From positions 1 through 13,605 of the forward strand of contig LJUI01000103.1 of assembly GCA_001303705.1 (NCBI GenBank): a stretch of 13,605 nucleotides of DNA. Direction: 5' to 3'. Positions 103 to 12,509 of the stretch are shown here, one piece after another; position 1 is the first letter of the stretch, and the number at the start of each line of letters is the position of its first letter. The translations under genes and the position numbers were made by a program. A model generated the notes under the pieces. It saw only the letters and a list, made by a program, of their open reading frames with translations, was not told the DNA's origin and searched no databases. This stretch comes from a candidate division TA06 bacterium SM23_40 (GTDB lineage Bacteria > LJUI01 > SM1-40).

Positions 103-177
103 CGGACTAGGAAGAGACCGATTGTTATGCGTACACGGAACGATTTTAATCGCAAAAAAGCACAGAAAGGATTCGAA

Positions 178-3100
178 ATGTTTTCAAGAAGTAAGCTCTT
201 TGGCTGTGCAGCGGTTCTCCTAGTCCTGCTAGTCTTGTTCCCAACGGTGCATTCGGTTGATGCTCAGGAAGAGCAGAAGGCAAAGATTGCACCGCAACTA
301 GCAGCACAACTTACTGCTGCAAAGCCTGACGATTATGTAACGGCGATCGTGCGCATGCGCGACATGCCGAACGTACAGATGCTTCGCGGGGACCGGCTCG
401 CGGTTTATAACGAGCTGCGTACCGTGTCGAAGCAAACACAGGCGGGCCTGGTGAGATACCTGGCAAGCGCTGAGATGCAGGGCAAAGTCGAGAAGATCCG
501 GCAGTTCTGGATCGACAACATTGTCCTCGTTCGGGCAAAGCCGGAAGTCATCTCGGCACTCGCAGCACGGCCCGATGTAATGGAAGTATTCGAAAACTTC
601 ACGGTCACCTTGCCTCCGAGACCGGAGGGTGGCGACAGGCCGCAACTCGGTCAGAGCCAGAACCAGCTCTGGGATTCGATAACGAAGATCGGTGTCAAGC
701 AGGTCTGGAGCACCTATGGCCTGGACGGTACCGGTGTCGTCATCGGTGGACTCGATACCGGTGTCGATATCACGCACCCCGACATCGCGGGCAAGATGAT
801 TACCAACAACCCGGCCGATCCTACCTACCCGGGTGGTTGGGCGGAGTTCGATGCGAACGGGAACATGATCGTTGGTTCTGTACCTCATGATTCCGATGAG
901 CACGGAACGCATACGACTGGAACGATGATCGGCGGCAACGCCAGTGGTTGGGATATCGGTGTTGCTCCCGGCGCATCGCTCATGCATGCACTCGTCATCC
1001 CGGGTGGGAGCGGTACATTCGCCCAGGTGATTGGTGGCATGGAGTGGATCATAGATCCCGACGGTATCCCGGCAACAGATGATGGCGCCCGGGTCATCAA
1101 CATGTCCCTCGGGGCGACGGGAACGTATACTGAGATGATCGCGCCTGTTGATAATATGATCGCGGCCAACGTGTTCCCGGCCATCGCGATCGGAAACAGC
1201 GGTCCTTCCCCGAATTCGACGTCAAGCCCCGGAAACGTGCCCAGCGCGTTCGGTGTCGGTATGACCGACAGTATGGATGTTATCGCAACCCTCTCGGGCC
1301 GCGGTCCGGTGACCTGGAATTACCCGCCCTATGTCGGAACGTACATAAAGCCGGACATCTCAGCACCCGGTGTCAAGATCTACTCATCGGTGCCCGGTAA
1401 TGATTGGCAGTGGACCAGTCCTCTCGGGGATTGGAGTGGTACCTCGATGGCCACACCGCATATGGCGGGGACAGCGGCCCTCATGTACCAGGCCAACCCA
1501 ACACTTTCCGTGGCAATCGCCAAGGATCTGGTTGCCCAGACTGCGATCGATCTCGGCGCTCCCGGAATGGACAACGATTACGGATGGGGACGCGTCAATG
1601 CGTTCGGAGCCGTCAGTGCGGCACTCGCCGGGGTCGGAACGGTGGAGGGTACGATTTACAGTTCAGCCGGTGGTACGGTAGAGAACGCGATGATCCTGCT
1701 CACCGATACCGGCCAGCGGGTTTACTCGGATGAGTTCGGCCACTACTCCCTCATGGCGGTCGCGGGGGATCATAACGTGGAGGTATCTCGTTTCGGTTAC
1801 GAGACCTACACCACGGCGGTCACCGTCATCGCTGACGAGACTGTCACGCTCGATGTGACCCTGACGCAGCTGCCGTCCGGCACGATCGCCGGATATGTGA
1901 CCGACGGTGAGAGTGGTGCGGGGATCGAAGCCAACATCACTATCAAGCTCGCCGGCGAGGCGGTTGTCTGGACATCGACCGATCCATCGACGGGTGAGTA
2001 CAGTGCTGTCCTACCTATCGGCATGTACGATCTCGTGTTCGCACCGGTATTCCCCTATCCCGTTACGATCAGAACGAATGTCGAAGTCTATGAAGGTATG
2101 ACGACGACACTCGATGTCACCATCGAGGGCGCCCAGATACTGATCGTCGACGATGATAAGGGCCAGGCATTCGAAACGTACTATGAAGCGGCCGTAATAG
2201 GTGCGGGGAGGTCGTTTATTACCATCACGACACCTCCCACAGCAGCCGATATGGCTCCTTTCGAGACGGTCGTCTGGCTTACCGGAAACGACTGGTCGAC
2301 CACGCTGACCACGGAAGATCAGGCGGAGATTGCCGCGTACCTCGACAGCGGCGGCCGGTTGTTCATATCGGGACAGGACATCGGTTACGATATCCGCACG
2401 GACGAATTCTACGCGAACTACCTCCATGCGACGTACGTGCAGGACGATGTCGGTCTCGGTGCCGTGATCGGTGATCCCGCGAGCCCTGTCGGTTACGGCT
2501 TCGCCTTTGAGATCCAGGGCGGAACGGGTGCCAATAACCAGGGGTATCCTTCCGAGATCGATCCGATCGTACCGGCGCTGCCCGCATTTCTCTACGATGA
2601 GTCCGTCCCCATGGGGACTGTGACGGGAAATGATCTGACGAAGGGGCAGGTCGAGACGAACAGTATCAACAGCTCGGGAACAGCCGCCTTGACATACGAA
2701 GGTGCCTACAAGCTGGTGTACTTCGCCTTCGGTTTCGAGGCAATTGCTGAGACAGAGACGAGGACACTCGTCATGGCCCGTATCCTCGACTGGCTCCTGG
2801 GGTACCCGGAGATCGTCCATACGCCTCTCGGTGATACCGAGGATACAGAGAATCCGTATCGGGTAACAGCATTCATCACCTCTGATTACTTCACCCTCGA
2901 CCCAGCGACCTTCGCCGTTGTCTACGACGTCGGCAGTGGTCCGGTCGTTCTGCCCATGTCTGCGACAGGCGTGCCCGATGAGTACGAGGCATACATCCCT
3001 GCGCAGGATATCGATACCGAGGTCTACTACTACATCACGGCGAGTGATGTGGAAGGACACACGAGTACCCATCCCATCGGTGCCCCGCTGAACATGCACA

Positions 3101-6100
3101 TGTTCACGGTAGGTTGGGATGAGGAAGCTCCCATGGTCGCTCACTCCAGGCACTACAACACGAATGACCTGGAAGGTCCGTACCGCATCTATGCCGAGGT
3201 ATCCGACAACATCGGCGTGGAGGCCGTCTACCTCATGTATTCGAGGAACGGGGGAATGCACCACCGTGTCAGGATGGAATACAATGATATGATGGGGAAT
3301 GGCATGTATCACGGTGAGATCCCTGGACCTTCCGAGGTCGGTGACATCTACGCTTACGATATCTATGCAATGGACGACTCGTACCACGGTAACGCCACCA
3401 GGGTGCCCGAGATGGGTGCCTTTATGTTCGAGATCGTCGAGTCCTTCTCGTGGGATTTCGAACTGGATAACGGCGGTTTCATGCAGACAGGGGACGTCTG
3501 GGAGTGGGGTGAGCCGACAACTGGTCCGGGAGAAGCCCATTCCGGCACCAATCTGTGGGCCACCGTTCTCGACGGTAACTACCCCAACTACGCCGATGCA
3601 ACGCTCGACATCCCTGCGATCACACTCTCCGCGAGCAAGCCGTACGCGTTGCTCACGTTCTGGCACTGGTACTACATCGAGACGAACTACGACGGTGGGA
3701 ACGTGAAGGTGTCGACTGACGGCGGAGCGACCTGGGAAGTCGTCGTCCCGATGGGTGGCTACGACGGGACGGCCCGGAGCGGAAACAGTGGTATTCCGGG
3801 CGAAGAGTGTTTCACCGGGTACAACAACGACTTCTGGCAGATGGAGCTCTTCGACCTCTCTGCCTACTCCGGCAGCCAGGTCATCGTTCGCTTCCACTTC
3901 GGCAGCGATAGCAGTGTGCCCAAGGTTGGATGGTATGTCGACGATGTCGAGCTGAGAAGTACAGATGTTGACGATATACCGCCTGTTATCAGCGATACAG
4001 AGATACCCACGAGCACCTTCGATACGGCAGGTCCGTACGAGGTTTCGACATACGTCGTGGACCCGCTGTCCGATGTTGCCGGTGTCTCCATCTTCTACAG
4101 TGTCGATGACGGCGCCACCTTCACAGAAGTGGCCATGGCACCCGGCACGGAGGAGAACCAGTGGGTAGGCTCGATTCCCGGCCAGCCGAATGGAACGAGG
4201 GTAAAGCTTTACCTCCGGGCGACGGATACCTCGTCCGGTGCGAACGAGGCTTTCGACCCGGCGGGAGCACCCGAGGATACCTACGAGTTTGCGATCCTCC
4301 CGTCCGCACCGATCCTCGTCATGCAGGCTACCAGCACGGCGAGCTCTCTCGAGATGTTCCGTGAGGCCCTCGAGGCCTACGGGCACGAGGCGGACTACTG
4401 GTACAACCCCACTCAGGGTTGGCTGTCGCTCGATCAACTCGAGCTGTACAAAATCATCATTCTCGATGAAACGGGCAGCCTGCTTACCACCGAACAGTCC
4501 GATCTCGGTGCGTACCTCGATGGTGGTTCCATGGGTGCGAAGAGACATCTCTTCATCATGGGCCGCGACCTCGGCTATTATTCCTCAACCAGACCGTGGA
4601 TAGAGGAGTATATGCGTGCCGCGTACGTCCAGGATAACCCCGGATGGCGCGAGCTGACCGGTTATCCCGGCGAATCTATCGGAGCTGGCGAAACCTTTGT
4701 GATTTCCGGCAGCTATCCGGACGAGGTGCAGCGTTCCACCACCTATCCCGGAGGCCAACTCGTGTACCAGTACACGGGAGAGGGTACTGCATCGTTCACG
4801 AGGGAGGAAATCGCCGGCGAGTATGAGAAGGACGAGAAGGAGTGGGACGGCATCATGCCATACGCTCCCAAGAGCCTCGATGCCGGTGCGGCGATCAAGT
4901 ACAACGGCGAGACGTACCGGTCCGTTTACTTCGCCTTCAACTTCTATTACATCCAAGAGCCCGACCGGCGAGCCGGCATCATGGACCGCGCCCTGGCATG
5001 GCTCTCGGCACCGGATATCTTGCACGAACCGCTGCACGATACGGAGGATATCGAAAATCCATACCCGGTGGTTGCAGAGGTCTACTCTGAGACACTCGAC
5101 CCCAGCCGCGTCAACATGGTCTACGACGTGGGCATGGGTCCCGTGTCGGTTCAGATGTTGCCCACCGGCAATCCCAACGAGTATGCGGCCAATATTCCTC
5201 CGCAGAGTCACGGAACGACGGTCAGTTACTACATCAGCGCGACCAACTACGACGGAACGACGGGCTTCCACCCGGATGGTGCGCCTGATGTGCAGCACAC
5301 CTTCGAGGTGACAACCGATATCACGCCGCCCGAGATCGTCCATATGCCCCTCGGCAATACGGCGAATCTCGCCGGTCCGTACGTGATAGAGGCCGTCATC
5401 ACCGATAACGTCGGTGTCGATCCGGCCGGTGTCTTCCTCACCTACAACAAGAACGGCGGATCGGACGTCACCGTGCCAATGGTCACATCAGGTGGCGACC
5501 TGTACAGTGCCGAGATCCCAGGGCCGTCAGTGCTCGGCGATGTGTACAACTACTTCATCCGTGCCCGCGATGTCGCCGCCGTACCGAATACGGCGAGACA
5601 CCCCGCGACCGGGTATCACTCCTTCGAGGTCGTCGATTACTACGCCTGGGATTTCGAGGCGAGTGACGGCGGCTTTGCCGCTACCGGTCCCGATTGGGAG
5701 TGGGGAGAGCCGACAACCGGTCCGGAAAATGCGTATTCCGGTGTTAATTTGTGGGCCACCAAGGTAGGTGACGACTACTCATACAGCTCGGATTCGAGGT
5801 TGGAGACTCCTGTGATCGGGGTTCCGACGGGTAGCACCTATGCAGCCCTGAGCTTCTGGCAGTGGTACTACATGCAGACTAACTACGACGGCGGGAACGT
5901 GAAGGTCTCCACTGACGGCGGCGCAACCTGGACGATCCTGACACCTGATATCGGATACAACGGTACAGCCTCCACAACCAACGCCGGTATCCCCGGCGAA
6001 CCCTGCTTCACCGGCTACAACGGTGACGAATGGCACAAGGTGACGTTCAACCTGACACCGTACAAGGGCCAGAACGTCATTATCAGGTGGCATTTCGGCA

Positions 6101-7554
6101 GTAACTCCTACACGAACTATGTCGGCTGGTACATCGACGATGTGAGGATCGAAGGTGTCGAGGACACCGAAGGCCCTGCGTTCGTTTCAACCGAGGTGCC
6201 CGGAAGCACGTTCGATACGGCGGGACCGTACACCGTGACGACCACGGTACTAGACGCTCTTTCGGGTATCGCTTCGGTGGACCTCTCCTACAGCACCGAC
6301 AACGGTACGAGCTGGACCGTTGTGGCGATGACCCCGACCGGCAATCCGGACGAGTACAGTGGGGATATCCCGGGACAGGATTCCGGTGCCAGGATCAAGC
6401 TGTACCTGGAGGCGACAGACAACGCCGCCAACAGCTCGACCGATCCTGCCGGTGCCCCGGCGATCACCTACGAGTTCGGCATCATGCCGTCGGGTGACTA
6501 CCTGGTGCTCCTCGGTGGTGGTTCGCACACGTCACCCGAAGACTACCAGCTGGCCTTCTCTGCGATCGGCCGGACTGCGGATATCTGGGATTGGGACGAT
6601 CTTGGATTGCCCACCGTCGAGATCATGCTCCTCTACGACGGTGTGGTCGTTGATGAGAGCTGGTACTTCGATTCATACCAGCAGGACTCCATCGGCAGTT
6701 TCCTTGACACCGACCGCGACGTCCTGAACCAGATCTTCTTCCTCGGAAGGGATCTCTCCTACGGTTCTTCGGCGCGTCCGTTCATGGAACAGTACACGGG
6801 AGCGGCCTACGTCCAGGATAATCCGGGATGGCGTGAGCTGACCAGTACGCCTGGCGATCCGATCGGTAACGATTCGACCTTCGTCATCCAGGGTAACTAC
6901 CCGGATGAGCTGAAGCTCTCGACATCGTACCCCGGCGCAAACATAGTCTACAGGTACAGCGCCCTCGGCTCGTCTCTCGAGCTCTTCGATACCGAGCAAG
7001 AGCTGAGAGAGTTCTACGAGGCGGAAGGGAAACCCTGGGATCCGAGGCTCTGGCCGATGGCTCCTCAGGGTCCCGACACGGCGGCCGCTGTACGCTACGT
7101 CGGCCCGCACCACGCGGCGGTCTACTTCGCGTTCAATCTCAACTACATCCAGGAGGATTGGCGGAGAGCGGGCATTCTCGACCGCGCCCTCAACTGGCTG
7201 TCGATGGCGACAAGCGTCATTGGCAAAGAGGTCGCCGGTGGCGGTCTGGCGGAAACGCCGGAGATCCCGGACAAGCTGACCCTATGGCAGAACTATCCGA
7301 ACCCGTTCAACCCGGTAACCACTGTACAGTTCGGTATACCGGCGAATGTGAAGGGTTCTGTGCAGCTCAGGATCTACAACGTCAAGGGTGAGCTGGTGAA
7401 GATACTCTTCGAGGGCACCAAGGAGCCCGGCGTCCATACCTTCAAGTGGGATGGACGAAATGAGCACGGGCGCAAGGTGTCATCCGGTATCTACTTCTGC
7501 AGATTTGTTGCAGGTGATGTCCGGATAACCAAGAAGATGGTGCTCTTGAGGTAG
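178..7554 (+). CDS. Giant secreted S8 (subtilisin-like) peptidase with duplicated GATase-like/Ig-like/jelly-roll modules and FlgD-like C-terminal domain
   Basis: A secreted serine endopeptidase of 2458 residues. I chose ATG 178 over ATG 127 because AAAGGA lies 6 bases before it and it gives a compact signal peptide (RSK, then a leucine/valine core, VDAQ near residue 30). Domain order: I9-like propeptide about 30-125; S8 domain about 150-485 with the complete triad D193 (LDTGVD), H242 (HGTHTTG), S423 (GTSMATPH) and oxyanion N340 (GNSG); two carboxypeptidase-regulatory-like folds 487-565 and 568-651; GATase-1-like domain 652-878; Ig-like 879-980 and 985-1090; MAM/immune-inhibitor-A-like jelly roll 1091-1261; Ig-like 1266-1375; second GATase-like 1377-1611; Ig-like 1614-1713 and 1717-1818; second jelly roll 1823-1992; Ig-like 1998-2105; third GATase-like 2106-2345; FlgD-like/type IX-type C-terminal domain 2367-2458 (NYPNPFNP). 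The GATase-like domains have no nucleophile cysteine (GQDIG, GRDLG, GRDLS), so they are probably structural or binding modules. The protease call is firm; the substrate and the secretion route are not known. Confidence 0.93.
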   Translation: MFSRSKLFGCAAVLLVLLVLFPTVHSVDAQEEQKAKIAPQLAAQLTAAKPDDYVTAIVRMRDMPNVQMLRGDRLAVYNELRTVSKQTQAGLVRYLASAEMQGKVEKIRQFWIDNIVLVRAKPEVISALAARPDVMEVFENFTVTLPPRPEGGDRPQLGQSQNQLWDSITKIGVKQVWSTYGLDGTGVVIGGLDTGVDITHPDIAGKMITNNPADPTYPGGWAEFDANGNMIVGSVPHDSDEHGTHTTGTMIGGNASGWDIGVAPGASLMHALVIPGGSGTFAQVIGGMEWIIDPDGIPATDDGARVINMSLGATGTYTEMIAPVDNMIAANVFPAIAIGNSGPSPNSTSSPGNVPSAFGVGMTDSMDVIATLSGRGPVTWNYPPYVGTYIKPDISAPGVKIYSSVPGNDWQWTSPLGDWSGTSMATPHMAGTAALMYQANPTLSVAIAKDLVAQTAIDLGAPGMDNDYGWGRVNAFGAVSAALAGVGTVEGTIYSSAGGTVENAMILLTDTGQRVYSDEFGHYSLMAVAGDHNVEVSRFGYETYTTAVTVIADETVTLDVTLTQLPSGTIAGYVTDGESGAGIEANITIKLAGEAVVWTSTDPSTGEYSAVLPIGMYDLVFAPVFPYPVTIRTNVEVYEGMTTTLDVTIEGAQILIVDDDKGQAFETYYEAAVIGAGRSFITITTPPTAADMAPFETVVWLTGNDWSTTLTTEDQAEIAAYLDSGGRLFISGQDIGYDIRTDEFYANYLHATYVQDDVGLGAVIGDPASPVGYGFAFEIQGGTGANNQGYPSEIDPIVPALPAFLYDESVPMGTVTGNDLTKGQVETNSINSSGTAALTYEGAYKLVYFAFGFEAIAETETRTLVMARILDWLLGYPEIVHTPLGDTEDTENPYRVTAFITSDYFTLDPATFAVVYDVGSGPVVLPMSATGVPDEYEAYIPAQDIDTEVYYYITASDVEGHTSTHPIGAPLNMHMFTVGWDEEAPMVAHSRHYNTNDLEGPYRIYAEVSDNIGVEAVYLMYSRNGGMHHRVRMEYNDMMGNGMYHGEIPGPSEVGDIYAYDIYAMDDSYHGNATRVPEMGAFMFEIVESFSWDFELDNGGFMQTGDVWEWGEPTTGPGEAHSGTNLWATVLDGNYPNYADATLDIPAITLSASKPYALLTFWHWYYIETNYDGGNVKVSTDGGATWEVVVPMGGYDGTARSGNSGIPGEECFTGYNNDFWQMELFDLSAYSGSQVIVRFHFGSDSSVPKVGWYVDDVELRSTDVDDIPPVISDTEIPTSTFDTAGPYEVSTYVVDPLSDVAGVSIFYSVDDGATFTEVAMAPGTEENQWVGSIPGQPNGTRVKLYLRATDTSSGANEAFDPAGAPEDTYEFAILPSAPILVMQATSTASSLEMFREALEAYGHEADYWYNPTQGWLSLDQLELYKIIILDETGSLLTTEQSDLGAYLDGGSMGAKRHLFIMGRDLGYYSSTRPWIEEYMRAAYVQDNPGWRELTGYPGESIGAGETFVISGSYPDEVQRSTTYPGGQLVYQYTGEGTASFTREEIAGEYEKDEKEWDGIMPYAPKSLDAGAAIKYNGETYRSVYFAFNFYYIQEPDRRAGIMDRALAWLSAPDILHEPLHDTEDIENPYPVVAEVYSETLDPSRVNMVYDVGMGPVSVQMLPTGNPNEYAANIPPQSHGTTVSYYISATNYDGTTGFHPDGAPDVQHTFEVTTDITPPEIVHMPLGNTANLAGPYVIEAVITDNVGVDPAGVFLTYNKNGGSDVTVPMVTSGGDLYSAEIPGPSVLGDVYNYFIRARDVAAVPNTARHPATGYHSFEVVDYYAWDFEASDGGFAATGPDWEWGEPTTGPENAYSGVNLWATKVGDDYSYSSDSRLETPVIGVPTGSTYAALSFWQWYYMQTNYDGGNVKVSTDGGATWTILTPDIGYNGTASTTNAGIPGEPCFTGYNGDEWHKVTFNLTPYKGQNVIIRWHFGSNSYTNYVGWYIDDVRIEGVEDTEGPAFVSTEVPGSTFDTAGPYTVTTTVLDALSGIASVDLSYSTDNGTSWTVVAMTPTGNPDEYSGDIPGQDSGARIKLYLEATDNAANSSTDPAGAPAITYEFGIMPSGDYLVLLGGGSHTSPEDYQLAFSAIGRTADIWDWDDLGLPTVEIMLLYDGVVVDESWYFDSYQQDSIGSFLDTDRDVLNQIFFLGRDLSYGSSARPFMEQYTGAAYVQDNPGWRELTSTPGDPIGNDSTFVIQGNYPDELKLSTSYPGANIVYRYSALGSSLELFDTEQELREFYEAEGKPWDPRLWPMAPQGPDTAAAVRYVGPHHAAVYFAFNLNYIQEDWRRAGILDRALNWLSMATSVIGKEVAGGGLAETPEIPDKLTLWQNYPNPFNPVTTVQFGIPANVKGSVQLRIYNVKGELVKILFEGTKEPGVHTFKWDGRNEHGRKVSSGIYFCRFVAGDVRITKKMVLLR
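2812..5016 (+). repeat. Intragenic tandem duplication, unit 1 (about 2.2 kb)
   Basis: Residues 879-1613 of the S8 peptidase form one unit in the order Ig-like, Ig-like, jelly roll, Ig-like, GATase-like. It begins at IVHTPLGDTEDTENPY and ends after the GATase-like domain (ALAWLSAPD). The following stretch repeats the same order and many of the same phrases: WEWGEPTTGP, NYDGGNVKVSTDGGATW, IPGEECFTGYN, TFDTAGPY and AAYVQDNPGWREL. Boundaries were set by eye from these phrases and may be off by a few residues. Confidence 0.85.
5017..7209 (+). repeat. Intragenic tandem duplication, unit 2 (about 2.2 kb)
   Basis: Residues 1614 to about 2344 repeat unit 1 domain by domain, starting at ILHEPLHDTEDIENPY and ending after the third GATase-like domain (ALNWLSMAT). 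The third GATase-like domain resembles the second far more than the first: it shares AAYVQDNPGWREL, a TYPG/SYPG phrase and an AAVRY/AAIKY phrase. This supports the unit being Ig-Ig-jelly roll-Ig-GATase, duplicated after the first GATase-like domain was already in place. Confidence 0.85.
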
Positions 7555-8258: not shown

Positions 8259-8287
8259 TTGACAGGCGGGCTCTGATTATTAATAAT
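8259..8287 (+). promoter_or_regulatory. Sigma70-type promoter of the Fur/PerR-family gene
   Basis: A perfect -35 box TTGACA (8259-8264) is followed after exactly 17 bases by AATAAT (8282-8287), a 5 of 6 match to the -10 consensus. An A-rich tract (8242-8254) just upstream could act as an UP-like element. Transcription would start near 8294, giving a leader of roughly 23 bases before ATG 8317. The -10 box lies inside the palindrome described separately. Confidence 0.75.
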
Positions 8288-8309
8288 AGTAATTGTTACT
8301 ATTATTAAT
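8279..8309 (+). promoter_or_regulatory. 31-bp palindromic operator, probable Fur/PerR-type box
   Basis: The arms attaataatagtaa (8279-8292) and ttactattattaat (8296-8309) are perfect reverse complements of 14 bp around a 3-base centre (ttg). The AT-rich, ATAAT-like content resembles Fur-family operators (Fur, PerR and Zur boxes are AT-rich inverted repeats). The palindrome covers the -10 box and the expected start point of the promoter, and lies 8 bases before the regulator's start codon. This is the classic placement for negative autoregulation. Which family member binds it is inferred from the adjacent gene. Confidence 0.75.
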
Positions 8310-8316
8310 TACAGTT

Positions 8317-8736
8317 ATGCAACCAGAAAGACACATAAGGATGACTCAGCAGCGCCAGGTTATACTGGATGAGTTACGAAAGCTCGATTCGCATCCCACC
8401 GCGGATGAGATCTACGAGATCGTCCGCAGGAGGATTCCCCGGATCAGCCTCGGTACGGTATACCGGAATCTGGAGTTTCTTTCCAGGTGTGGTATCATTC
8501 GAAAGCTCGAACTCAGCGGCTCCCAGATGCGGTTTGACGGTTTTATAGACAGACATAACCATATCAGGTGCATTCGCTGCGGCAGGGTTGATGATTTACC
8601 CGCCGAGCAGTTGCTGACAGAATGTGACAGGGATCTACTGAAAGAGACGGGATACAAGGTTATCGAGCGACGGGTTGAGTTCCTGGGCGTGTGCCCGAAC
8701 TGCAGGGAAGATGAGGGCACCGAATCAGCGGGGTAA
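8317..8736 (+). CDS. perR: Fur-family transcriptional regulator, PerR-like
   Basis: A 139-residue metal-dependent repressor. The N-terminal winged helix (MTQQRQVILDEL through ISLGTVYRNLEFL) binds DNA and the C-terminal half dimerises. The structural zinc site is complete: C85, C88 (CIRC), C126 and C129 (CPNC). The sensing site matches Bacillus subtilis PerR in spacing: H26 (SHPTAD), D74 (RFDG), H80 and H82 (HNH), D93 (VDD), equivalent to H37, D85, H91, H93 and D104. An Asp rather than Glu at the last position favours PerR over Fur. PerR with bound Fe(II) is inactivated by peroxide through oxidation of the histidines. ATG 8317 is chosen because it lies just beyond the predicted transcript start and keeps the usual N-terminal arm; ATG 8341 is the alternative, and neither has a strong Shine-Dalgarno. 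A TTG at 8293 would place the start inside the operator and is unlikely. Nearby peroxide/superoxide defence and ferritin genes support the PerR reading. Confidence 0.87.
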   Translation: MQPERHIRMTQQRQVILDELRKLDSHPTADEIYEIVRRRIPRISLGTVYRNLEFLSRCGIIRKLELSGSQMRFDGFIDRHNHIRCIRCGRVDDLPAEQLLTECDRDLLKETGYKVIERRVEFLGVCPNCREDEGTESAG

Positions 8737-8807: not shown

Positions 8808-9623
8808 GTGAACCACAAGACCACAAAAAAGAAGCGCTGGCGCCGGCACGTGAATTCTGATCCTCTCGTCTTCCTGTACGACTACGACGATATCCGGGAT
8901 CGGGAAATTGTCGGGCTCATCGCATCTTCTCTCGCATATGGGAATGTAAAACAGATATCGAAAAGCGTGGACGGTGTATTGAGTTTCATGGGAGCATCAC
9001 CGGCTCATTTTCTCGAGACGTCAACCCCCAGAGCAATTGAGAGAACATTTTCGAGTTTCAAACACCGGTGGACAACGGGTTGGGATTTGGCATCGATGCT
9101 CAAAGGAGCGAAGCAGGTGATAGAGAAGTACGGATCTCTCGAATCCTGTTTCGCCTATGGTCTCGAGACGTCCCATGTCGATACCGTTGCAGCTCTCACA
9201 CATTTCGTGAGCGAGTTGAAAGGTGCTGATGGCAGCTCGTACAATAGTCTTCTCCCCTCTCCGTGTAGGAACAGTGCCTGCAAACGTCTTCACCTCTTCT
9301 TACGTTGGATGGTTCGGAGCGATCGGGTCGATCCCGGCGGCTGGACCGAGGTTTCCGCTTCAAAGCTTCTCGTTCCTCTCGATAGACATATGTACCGGTT
9401 TGCCATGGATACAGGCCTGACCGAGCGGAAGCAGCCCAACCTGCATACGGCACGGGAGGTCACAGAGGCATTCAGGGAGATCTCTCCAGAGGATCCCGTG
9501 AAATACGACTTCGCCCTGACACGGCTGGGGATTCTCCGGATTGATGACCGGAATAAGTTCATGAGGCAGCTCGGTATGAATAAGGGAGACCGGATTAAGG
9601 GGGGTATCGCGTGGAGGGCGTAG
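8808..9623 (+). CDS. TIGR02757 family protein (DUF2400)
   Basis: A 271-residue cytoplasmic protein of the conserved bacterial TIGR02757/DUF2400 family, whose biochemical function is not established as far as I know. Family phrases are clear: DPLVFLYDYDDIRDREIVGL and IASSLAYGNVKQI (about 18-52), LFLRWMVRSDRVDPGGW (about 163-179), and LLVPLDRHMYRFA followed by EDPVKYDFALTRLGI near the C-terminus. The start is GTG 8808, supported by a strong GGGGGAGGA (8795-8803); no ATG is in frame upstream before a TGA at 8769. Relative to what I recall of the family, the N-terminal helix (usually ending LYDRYN) looks replaced by a lysine/arginine-rich stretch (KTTKKKRWRRH), so the N-terminus may be a little short. 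The 3' end overlaps the permease gene by 13 bases, which suggests translational coupling and one operon. Confidence 0.85.
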   Translation: MNHKTTKKKRWRRHVNSDPLVFLYDYDDIRDREIVGLIASSLAYGNVKQISKSVDGVLSFMGASPAHFLETSTPRAIERTFSSFKHRWTTGWDLASMLKGAKQVIEKYGSLESCFAYGLETSHVDTVAALTHFVSELKGADGSSYNSLLPSPCRNSACKRLHLFLRWMVRSDRVDPGGWTEVSASKLLVPLDRHMYRFAMDTGLTERKQPNLHTAREVTEAFREISPEDPVKYDFALTRLGILRIDDRNKFMRQLGMNKGDRIKGGIAWRA

Positions 9624-10870
9624 CCATCGCATTCGTTCTCGAACTCTGGGAGACGCTCCGTGAGATGGCGCCCTTTCTCATATTCGGCTTCTTCGTTGCG
9701 GGAGTGCTTTCAGTCCTGATCCAGCCCGAGGTTGTTGAGCGTCACCTGGGAGGGAGAGGATTGTGGCAGGTGATCAAGGCTGCGATCTTCGGTGTACCGC
9801 TGCCCCTCTGCTCCTGCGGCGTGATCCCGGTTGCCGCTTCTCTCCGGAGGCACGGGGCCGGTTCCGGCGCTACGACCTCATTCCTCATATCGACACCCCA
9901 GACGGGCGTTGACAGTATCATGGTGACCCTGAGCCTCCTCGGTCCTGTATTCGCTGTGTTCAGGCCACTCATCTCATTCGTGAGCGGTCTGCTCGGCGGC
10001 TCGCTCGTTACCTACTTCGGTTCGAGTGCCGGCTCTCGTGAGGAGCCGCGGCCGAAATGTGTGGAGGAATGCTGTACCGGCGTGGAGATTCAGGGAAAAA
10101 TCCCCCGAGTTCTTCGCTACGGATTTATCACCCTTCCGAGGGATATCAATAAGGCGCTCATTATCGGTGTGCTCGTGGCGGGAGCAATCTCCGCACTCGT
10201 TCCTGACGACTACTTCTCATGGATTCTCGGCGGTGGGATCGTCTCGATGCTCGTGATGATGGCAGTCGGTATCCCAATATATGTATGTGCCACGGCATCG
10301 GTACCCGTCGCGGCAGCACTCATCGCAAAGGGTGTATCGCCGGGTGCCGCCCTCGTATTCCTCATGACGGGTCCGGCCACGAACGCCGCGACGGTGACCA
10401 CAGTGTGGAAGATCATGGGAAAGAGAACAGCGGGTATTTACCTCGGAACGGTTGCAGTCTCTTCTGTTGCGGCAGGTCTTTTTCTCGATTACATCTTTGA
10501 GGCAGGCGCCTTGCCGGTGGCTTCGGGCATGCCGTGGATGGTACCTGGTTACGTGAAAACAATCAGTGCGGGAGCACTGCTTGCGATCATGGTAGCCGCT
10601 TTTTTCCGACCTTCAAAGGTAGGTGAGAAACCGATGACCAAAGAAGCGGGACAGACCTTGAAGTTGACGATAGAGGGGATGAGCTGTGATCACTGTGCGA
10701 GGAGCATTCAACGGGCCCTCGTCGAGAGCCCCGGTGTGCAGTCGGCGGTGGTTGATCTCAAGAGCGGTGAAGCTCTCGTCACAGGCGAGGATCTCGATAC
10801 GGCCGTACTCAGCGAGGCGATCGAAGAGCTGGGGTATAAGGTCGTGGACAGTGATTTCCTGGAGGAGTAG
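9611..10870 (+). CDS. SO_0444-like Cu/Zn efflux permease with C-terminal HMA domain
   Basis: A 419-residue inner-membrane permease of the DUF318/ArsP-like superfamily, closest by eye to the SO_0444 family of Cu/Zn exporters. GTG 9611 is preceded by AAGGGGGG (9597-9604) inside the upstream gene. About eight hydrophobic segments are visible. The signature PLPLCSCGVIPVA carries C67 and C69, and a second, related half (GIPIYVCATASVPVAAAL, C226, then GPATNAATV) shows an internal duplication of the transport core. A soluble loop between the halves holds C150, C154 and C155 (KCVEECC), a likely metal-binding cluster. Residues about 345-412 are a heavy-metal-associated domain with GMSC359-DHC362, which would bind Cu(I) or Zn(II) in the cytoplasm and pass it to the permease. 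Metal specificity cannot be read from sequence; arsenic efflux (ArsP) is the main alternative, less likely given the HMA domain. Its place beside a metal-sensing regulator and ferritin fits metal homeostasis. Confidence 0.85.
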   Translation: MEGVAIAFVLELWETLREMAPFLIFGFFVAGVLSVLIQPEVVERHLGGRGLWQVIKAAIFGVPLPLCSCGVIPVAASLRRHGAGSGATTSFLISTPQTGVDSIMVTLSLLGPVFAVFRPLISFVSGLLGGSLVTYFGSSAGSREEPRPKCVEECCTGVEIQGKIPRVLRYGFITLPRDINKALIIGVLVAGAISALVPDDYFSWILGGGIVSMLVMMAVGIPIYVCATASVPVAAALIAKGVSPGAALVFLMTGPATNAATVTTVWKIMGKRTAGIYLGTVAVSSVAAGLFLDYIFEAGALPVASGMPWMVPGYVKTISAGALLAIMVAAFFRPSKVGEKPMTKEAGQTLKLTIEGMSCDHCARSIQRALVESPGVQSAVVDLKSGEALVTGEDLDTAVLSEAIEELGYKVVDSDFLEE

Positions 10871-10952
10871 ATCTCGAGAGATCTCTCCTTCCGTTTATCA
10901 TAGATGAGAGAAAGAATGAAACATCGTGGACGTTGACCAGAAGGAGGAGTAT

Positions 10953-11525
10953 ATGTCCATCAAGGGTACGAGGACAGAAAAGAATATCCTGACTGCGTTC
11001 GCCGGCGAGTCACAGGCGAGGAACCGTTACAGCTACTTCGCGAGTCAGGCGAAGAAGGACGGTTACGAGCAGATCACCTCGATCTTCCAGGAGACGGCGG
11101 ATCAGGAGAAGGAGCATGCGAAGCGGCTGTTCAAGCTGCTCGAGGGGGATGAGGTCGAAGTCCAGGCATCTTTCCCGGCCGGTGTCATCGGCACCACCGC
11201 CGAGAACCTCAAAGAAGCTGCAGCCGGCGAGAACTACGAGTGGACGGATATGTACCCCGGTTTCGCCAAGGTGGCCCGGGAGGAAGGCTTCGATGAAATC
11301 GCCGACATCTTCATGTCCATCGCCGTGGCTGAAAAGCAGCACGAGAAACGGTACAACGATCTCAGGGCGAACATCGAGGCCGGCCGCGTTTTCAAGCGGG
11401 ATACAAAAGTCGTGTGGCGCTGCCGGAACTGCGGTTATCTGCACGAGGGGAATGAAGCACCGAAGGAATGTCCGGCGTGTGCTCATCCCCAGGCTCACTT
11501 CGAGCTGCTCGGTGAAAACTGGTGA
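10953..11525 (+). CDS. rbr: Rubrerythrin
   Basis: A 190-residue cytoplasmic non-heme iron protein that reduces hydrogen peroxide to water with electrons from rubredoxin or NADH:rubredoxin reductase; it is typical of anaerobes. The N-terminal four-helix ferritin-like domain has the full di-iron ligand set: E19 ([10 protein letters not shown]), E52 and H55 (QEKEH), E93 and E96 (ENYEW), E127 and H130 (EKQHE). The C-terminal rubredoxin domain binds one Fe through C157, C160 (CRNCGY), C173 and C176 (CPAC). Ligand spacing tracks Desulfovibrio rubrerythrin with an offset of one. ATG 10953 has an ideal AAGGAGG (10941-10947); the in-frame GTG at 10926 has none. The 82-base gap from the permease gene shows no terminator with a T run, so the gene may be read from upstream or from its own unrecognised promoter. 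Desulfoferrodoxin follows 75 bases later. Confidence 0.96.
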
Positions 11526-11600: not shown

Positions 11601-11978
11601 ATGACGAAGCGACTCCAGGTTTACAAATGCGGTGTATGCGGCAACATTGTCGAGGTGCTGCATAAAGGAATGGGCCAGCTCGTGTGCTGCAATCAGCCGA
11701 TGAGACTGCGCGAGGAGAATACAACGGATGCCGCAACTGAAAAGCACGTCCCCGTTATCGAGAAGGTCGAGGGCGGCTACAAGGTGAAGGTCGGGAGTGT
11801 TCCCCACCCCATGGAGGAGAAGCATTACATCGAGTGGATTCAGCTCCAGGCCGGTGGAGAGTCTTACCGACGGTTCCTCAATCCCGGTGATGCACCGGAA
11901 GCGTTTTTCAACGTGACTGCTGAGAAGGTTTCGGCTCGCGAGTACTGTAACCTTCACGGCCTCTGGAAAGGGGAGTGA
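11601..11978 (+). CDS. dfx: Desulfoferrodoxin (superoxide reductase, two-iron type)
   Basis: A 125-residue cytoplasmic enzyme that reduces superoxide to hydrogen peroxide without making oxygen, using electrons from rubredoxin. The N-terminal desulforedoxin-like domain holds center I with C10, C13, C29 and C30 (CGVC, CC). The catalytic center II ligands are all present: H49, H69 (VPHPM), H75 (EKHYIEW), C116 and H119 ([10 protein letters not shown]), with the E47-K48 pair that guides substrate. The numbering is the same as I recall for the Desulfoarculus baarsii enzyme, so there are no insertions or deletions up to the last ligand. AAGGAGGT (11587-11594) precedes ATG 11601. The peroxide it makes is the substrate of rubrerythrin just upstream, and the ferritin gene begins 6 bases after its stop, so the three genes form a coherent pathway and probably an operon. 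Confidence 0.97.
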
Positions 11979-11984
11979 TCGCTG

Positions 11985-12509
11985 ATGATCAAAAAGAAGA
12001 TTCGTGATGCATTCAACGAACAGATACAGCACGAACTGTACTCGGCATACCTCTACCTCTCGATGGCGGCTTACTGCCATTCGATCGGATTGGACGGGAT
12101 GGCTCAGTGGCTTCGCGTTCAAACGATGGAGGAGATGACTCATGCCATGAAGTTCTTCGATCACATCATCGAGCGCGACGGCAAGGTCGAACTTCTGCCG
12201 ATAAAAAAGCCGAAGATAACGTGGAAATCTCCGCTCGAAGGATTTCAGGATGCCTACAAGCACGAGCAGTTCATTACCGGCAGGATCAATGAGCTTGTCA
12301 AGCTCTCCAATGCGGAGAAAGACTACGCATCGAACAGTCTTCTCCAGTGGTTCGTTGACGAACAGGTCGAGGAGGAGGCTTCGGCATCGAAGGTTGTCCA
12401 GCAGTTGGAGATGGTCGGTGATTCCGGTAACGGCCTTCTCATGCTCGACCGGGAGCTGGGACAGCGAACCTTCACCTGGCCGACCGCAAAGGAAGGTGAG
12501 GGTGAATAG
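11985..12509 (+). CDS. ftnA: Non-heme ferritin (FtnA type)
   Basis: A 174-residue subunit of the 24-mer iron-storage shell, which oxidises Fe(II) and stores it as a ferric mineral. The ferroxidase residues sit at the same numbers as in Escherichia coli FtnA: E17 (QHELYSAY), E50 and H53 (MEEMTH), E94 (KHEQF), Q127 and E130 (EQVEEE), with E49, E126 and E129 available for the third iron site. No heme-ligand methionine typical of bacterioferritin was seen. ATG 11985 lies 6 bases after the dfx stop, and its GGGGAG (11970-11975) overlaps the last codons of dfx, indicating translational coupling. Removing free Fe(II) limits Fenton chemistry, which fits its place with rubrerythrin and superoxide reductase. 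A hairpin-rich region follows the stop codon. Confidence 0.96.
   Translation: MIKKKIRDAFNEQIQHELYSAYLYLSMAAYCHSIGLDGMAQWLRVQTMEEMTHAMKFFDHIIERDGKVELLPIKKPKITWKSPLEGFQDAYKHEQFITGRINELVKLSNAEKDYASNSLLQWFVDEQVEEEASASKVVQQLEMVGDSGNGLLMLDRELGQRTFTWPTAKEGEGE

Follow-up and report, generated by a model that had tools for sequence, protein, structure and literature searches.

The window analysed here is the whole stretch of 13,605 nucleotides, in which a perR-like gene is preceded by a promoter and a palindrome and followed by genes of peroxide and superoxide defence. The features are as follows.

8259 to 8264, forward strand: -35 hexamer TTGACA, from the promoter scan; TTGAC also lies 5' of the box in most orthologues.
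8279 to 8309, no strand: full 31-bp palindrome, whose six outermost pairs are peculiar to this genome; it can be read as three 19-bp registers 6 bp apart.
8282 to 8287, forward strand: -10 hexamer AATAAT after a 17-nt spacer, from the promoter scan.
8285 to 8303, no strand: putative core operator AATAGTAATTGTTACTATT, a predicted PerR box.
8317 to 8736, forward strand: perR-like gene, 139 aa from ATG 8317.
8808 to 9623, forward strand: DUF2400/TIGR02757 protein, a probable operon member.
9611 to 10870, forward strand: SO_0444-family Cu/Zn efflux permease with a fused HMA domain.
10926 to 11525, forward strand: rubrerythrin, by profile/family match.
11601 to 11978, forward strand: desulfoferrodoxin (superoxide reductase), by profile/family match.
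11985 to 12509, forward strand: ferritin, by profile/family match.

The order perR, DUF2400, Cu/Zn permease, rubrerythrin, desulfoferrodoxin and ferritin is also found in a Latescibacteria locus (L045), and a Krumholzibacteriota locus (L044) has the identical order as far as its contig reaches. Each of these two loci carries a box 5' of perR. The DUF2400 and Cu/Zn permease genes (8808 to 10870) lie between perR and rubrerythrin, and it would be of interest whether DUF2400 acts in metal handling or against oxidative stress. A 2475-aa protein is encoded at 127 to 7554; by eye, a signal peptide and a subtilisin-like part can be made out towards its N-terminus, along with repeats and a sorting-like domain at the C-terminus.

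The promoter TTGACA-N17-AATAAT (8259 to 8287) has 11 of 12 matches, against a chance expectation of 0.7 sites of this quality for the region, and transcription would be expected to start at about 8294. The palindrome reads ATTAATAATAGTAA-TTG-TTACTATTATTAAT, with perfect 14-bp arms in which all 14 pairs are formed around the TTG centre. It is the longest inverted repeat of the window; no other with arms of at least 9 bp and a loop of at most 8 was found across the 13,605 bases. The -10 hexamer ends at 8287, within 8279 to 8309, and the palindrome therefore covers both the -10 element and the expected start point. This confirms the perfect 14-bp inverted repeat with a 3-base centre of the original prediction, and the promoter scan bears out its placement over the -10 element and likely start of a promoter with a perfect TTGACA. 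The span of 8259 to 8309 given for the palindrome is real as promoter plus palindrome, but the palindrome proper occupies 8279 to 8309 only. No terminator was found. No clear Shine-Dalgarno sequence is seen at 8295 to 8316 before ATG 8317, unlike in L044 and in the paralogue described below; the perR-like start may be weak or lie elsewhere, and TTG 8293 and ATG 8341 are both in frame.

The product of the perR-like gene belongs to the FUR family (PF01475, E 7e-30). Its best solved relative in a PDB search was B. subtilis PerR (E 1.8e-22), with which it aligns along its length, and H37, D85, H91, H93, D104 and both CxxC pairs are retained. The five single residues, in B. subtilis PerR numbering, are the regulatory-site ligands; the FUR domain, these ligands and the two CxxC zinc pairs that mark a PerR protein are all present in the window protein. 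The B. subtilis PerR row in the ligand alignment agrees with the PDB alignment. PerR models outscored Fur models on the window protein (110.7 versus 82.4 bits). The NCBIfam PerR equivalog cut-off was not passed (best model NF052545, 110.7 bits against a cut-off of 180), nor did any other Fur-family model pass its cut-off for this protein, and the name PerR-like is therefore used.

Conservation was measured by scanning one genome per species from 84,980 species, which gave 42 relatives; six more came from other genomes. The closest relatives were found in Krumholzibacteriota (63%) and Latescibacteria (55%), in a compared set in which the window's genome is the only one of its phylum, and many were found in Desulfovibrionaceae. 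A palindromic motif was derived de novo from 32 upstream regions of orthologues with a Gly-Thr-(Val/Ile)-Tyr-Arg-Asn helix, with the window and its paralogue left out. The resulting motif was AATAGTAATnATTACTATT, with a log-likelihood gain of 217, where ten shuffled sets gave 29 to 40. The window core matches this motif with a score of 23.4, which was reached by 0 of 5000 shuffles of its own upstream region. A site above 13 was present in 28 of the 32 orthologue regions, and the comparison of orthologous perR upstream regions proposed in the original prediction thus found the core conserved. Among the loci that carry the box are ones labelled Krumholzibacteriota, Latescibacteria, Spirochaetales and Clostridia. 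In two loci perR lies inside an operon: in L046, a 23.8 site is located 5' of the rubrerythrin gene heading the operon, and in L048 the box precedes the upstream rubrerythrin gene. In L049, a 17.6 site lies slightly farther upstream. The distance from the box centre to the -35 start is 30 nt in Desulfovibrionaceae, with few exceptions, and 35 in the window, L044 and L045. The inner 19 bp (8285 to 8303) are most likely the functional unit of the palindrome.

Where relatives have Ala at the Gly position of the helix, mostly in Desulfobulbaceae and related groups, the boxes resemble GATAATGATTATTGAT and are arranged otherwise. Six orthologues with an SLATVYRN helix (L061, L063, L066, L068, L072 and L076) differ in operator layout: upstream of perR, boxes resembling GATAATGATTATT lie between the -35 and -10 elements, and a further arm is found close to the start codon. 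A link between the helix residue (Gly versus Ala) and the box type is suggestive only.

A genome-wide search was performed by patterns only, and the pattern used would recover 25 of the 28 orthologue sites. The sole other site above 13 found in the genome, with a score of 16.2, precedes a 60% identical perR paralogue, with TTGACA-N17-TATATT just upstream (read by eye). The paralogue heads a second operon.

L034, 603 to 6145 (genome G000, contig C78): second peroxide operon, with perR2, rubrerythrin, Tpx-like peroxiredoxin, desulfoferrodoxin, ferritin, and later a ferritin-like protein and a flavodiiron protein; Tpx and flavodiiron were named by eye from sequence.

The search for further genomic copies, also proposed at the outset, thus returned a second strong copy before stress genes. 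The remaining pattern matches (37, versus 54 for a reversed-pattern control, with a maximum score of 12.3 among those scored) do not exceed the control, and no wider regulon is therefore claimed. No box lies near the rubrerythrin-family genes on contigs C106, C40, C97 and C140, so the regulon looks small. Regulation appears to be local, which agrees with the account that Rodionov et al. gave of delta-proteobacteria (PMC545781).

Rodionov et al. (2004; PMC545781, Table 7) predicted 19-mer PerR sites in Desulfovibrio before perR, rubrerythrin (rbr2) and other genes, with AtCAGTAATtGTTACTGgT upstream of perR-rbr-rdl in D. vulgaris and AATAaGAATtGTTACTATT in D. desulfuricans. They reported no Bacillus-type PerR sites upstream of delta-proteobacterial peroxide genes, and a different palindrome overlapping the -10 element in Geobacter. 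Our own summary of their Table 7 is the form AAYAGKAATnRTTMCTRTT, which 8285 to 8303 fits at every place; like the Desulfovibrio-type sites, the window site overlaps the promoter of perR, upstream of peroxide-defence genes. The two share a 19-bp palindrome before perR and rubrerythrin genes. The window differs in perfect pairing that continues for another six pairs on each side, in having AGT in each half where the Desulfovibrio sites have AGG, in its phylum, and in its operon (DUF2400, Cu/Zn permease, ferritin). The literature search turned up no binding test of the predicted Desulfovibrio sites. The suggestion that the operator may be lineage-specific does not hold: this 19-mer had already been predicted in Desulfovibrio by the 2004 study and is present in loci of several phyla. 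The B. subtilis PerR box TTATAATnATTATAA shares with the predicted window operator the Fur-family 7-1-7 layout, a left half whose inner end reads TAAT, and autoregulation by a repressor, which is predicted in the window; the window half-site is TAGTAAT, with G third, and the recognition helix is SLGTVYRN versus SVATVYNN. At 8287 to 8301, TAGTAATTGTTACTA departs from TTATAATnATTATAA at at least 2 places per half, in agreement with the earlier statement that the core is unlike the Bacillus consensus. The E. coli Fur box GATAATGATnATCATTATC is likewise a 19-bp palindrome with overlapping 6-bp registers, but the half-site letters of the window differ, and the nearest kin of its regulator is PerR.

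Judged from sequence, it is highly probable that the inner 19 bp form the operator of the PerR-like protein, with peroxide releasing the repression of perR and the downstream defence genes. The protein encoded 14 bp downstream would bind the predicted operator, and the metal-loaded dimer would cover the -10 element and the start point and block RNA polymerase. Peroxide would oxidise the sensor, at histidine as is typical of PerR proteins, the protein would release the DNA, and perR, DUF2400, the Cu/Zn permease, rubrerythrin, desulfoferrodoxin and ferritin would then be transcribed. The proposal is built on the observed site, its position in the promoter, its conservation before orthologues and the paralogue, the conserved metal and zinc ligands, and the operon content; from these we infer binding, repression, metal identity, peroxide release and co-transcription, and from proximity and conservation the recognition of the site by this very protein. 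The boxes before 28 of 32 orthologues, and the further one at the head of the paralogue's peroxide operon, support the predicted operator for a PerR-like regulator.

It is improbable that the site instead serves another Fur-family regulator, Fur or the paralogue, sensing iron rather than peroxide. Fur-family boxes resemble one another, a Fur-like YRN replaces the Bacillus YNN in the recognition helix, ferritin belongs to the operon, and the genome has four Fur-family genes (the window's and at least three more). However, the box precedes the orthologous gene itself in several phyla, the operon is one of peroxide and superoxide defence, and the PerR models score higher. The boxes of both are alike, so there may well be cross-talk between the paralogue and this protein. 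An RNA stem-loop in the leader is very unlikely: the RNA fold reaches -12.1 kcal/mol (z -2.7), but a start at the palindrome centre would leave the transcript without one arm, the orthologues retain half-site letters and not pairing (5 bp from the centre, left G in 23/28 and right T in 21/28), and Rfam gave no match. The RNA element was rejected on these grounds. A chance palindrome of an AT-rich promoter is scarcely credible, since despite the 73% AT of the region and the unconserved outer six pairs, an equal palindrome arose in 1 of 20,000 first-order simulations (local 110 nt, 27% GC) and the core is identical to the independently derived motif.

Of the six pairs that lie 10 to 15 bp from the palindrome centre, all are formed in the window; the set is complete in none of the 28 orthologues, with a mean of 2.1/6. 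The stated length beyond a standard box is therefore not a conserved trait, with pairing beyond 9 to 10 bp from the centre lost in orthologues. The probability of six outer pairs by chance is 0.0006 at local composition, and the extension may therefore not be idle. A 19-bp register extended by 6 at each end gives the length of 31, and by patterns, registers at -6 and +6 are found in the window and the paralogue site alike, resembling overlapping Fur dimers. The motif itself is 6-periodic, and the orthologue offset profile, judged by eye, does not rise at offsets of -6 and +6 by more than this periodicity would account for; the three-register reading therefore stays conjecture. A joint reading, in which the 31 bp would be an extended operator with three registers for more than one PerR dimer, the three registers before the paralogue would make both operons one cooperative switch, and the GTAAT box would go with the Gly-Thr-Val-Tyr-Arg-Asn helix across phyla, is doubtful.

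Very probably, a predicted peroxide-sensing repressor of its own gene and of oxygen-defence genes docks at the palindrome. By its letters, the core belongs with the predicted PerR sites of Desulfovibrio and adds, with good support, another example to a known type of switch. A PerR operator predicted for Desulfovibrio only (PMC545781) now extends to several other phyla, one of them uncultured. The box is tied to a conserved operon in which genes against peroxide and superoxide stand alongside those for ferritin, a Cu/Zn exporter and a DUF2400 protein, and it provides a ready handle for regulon members in unculturable genomes.
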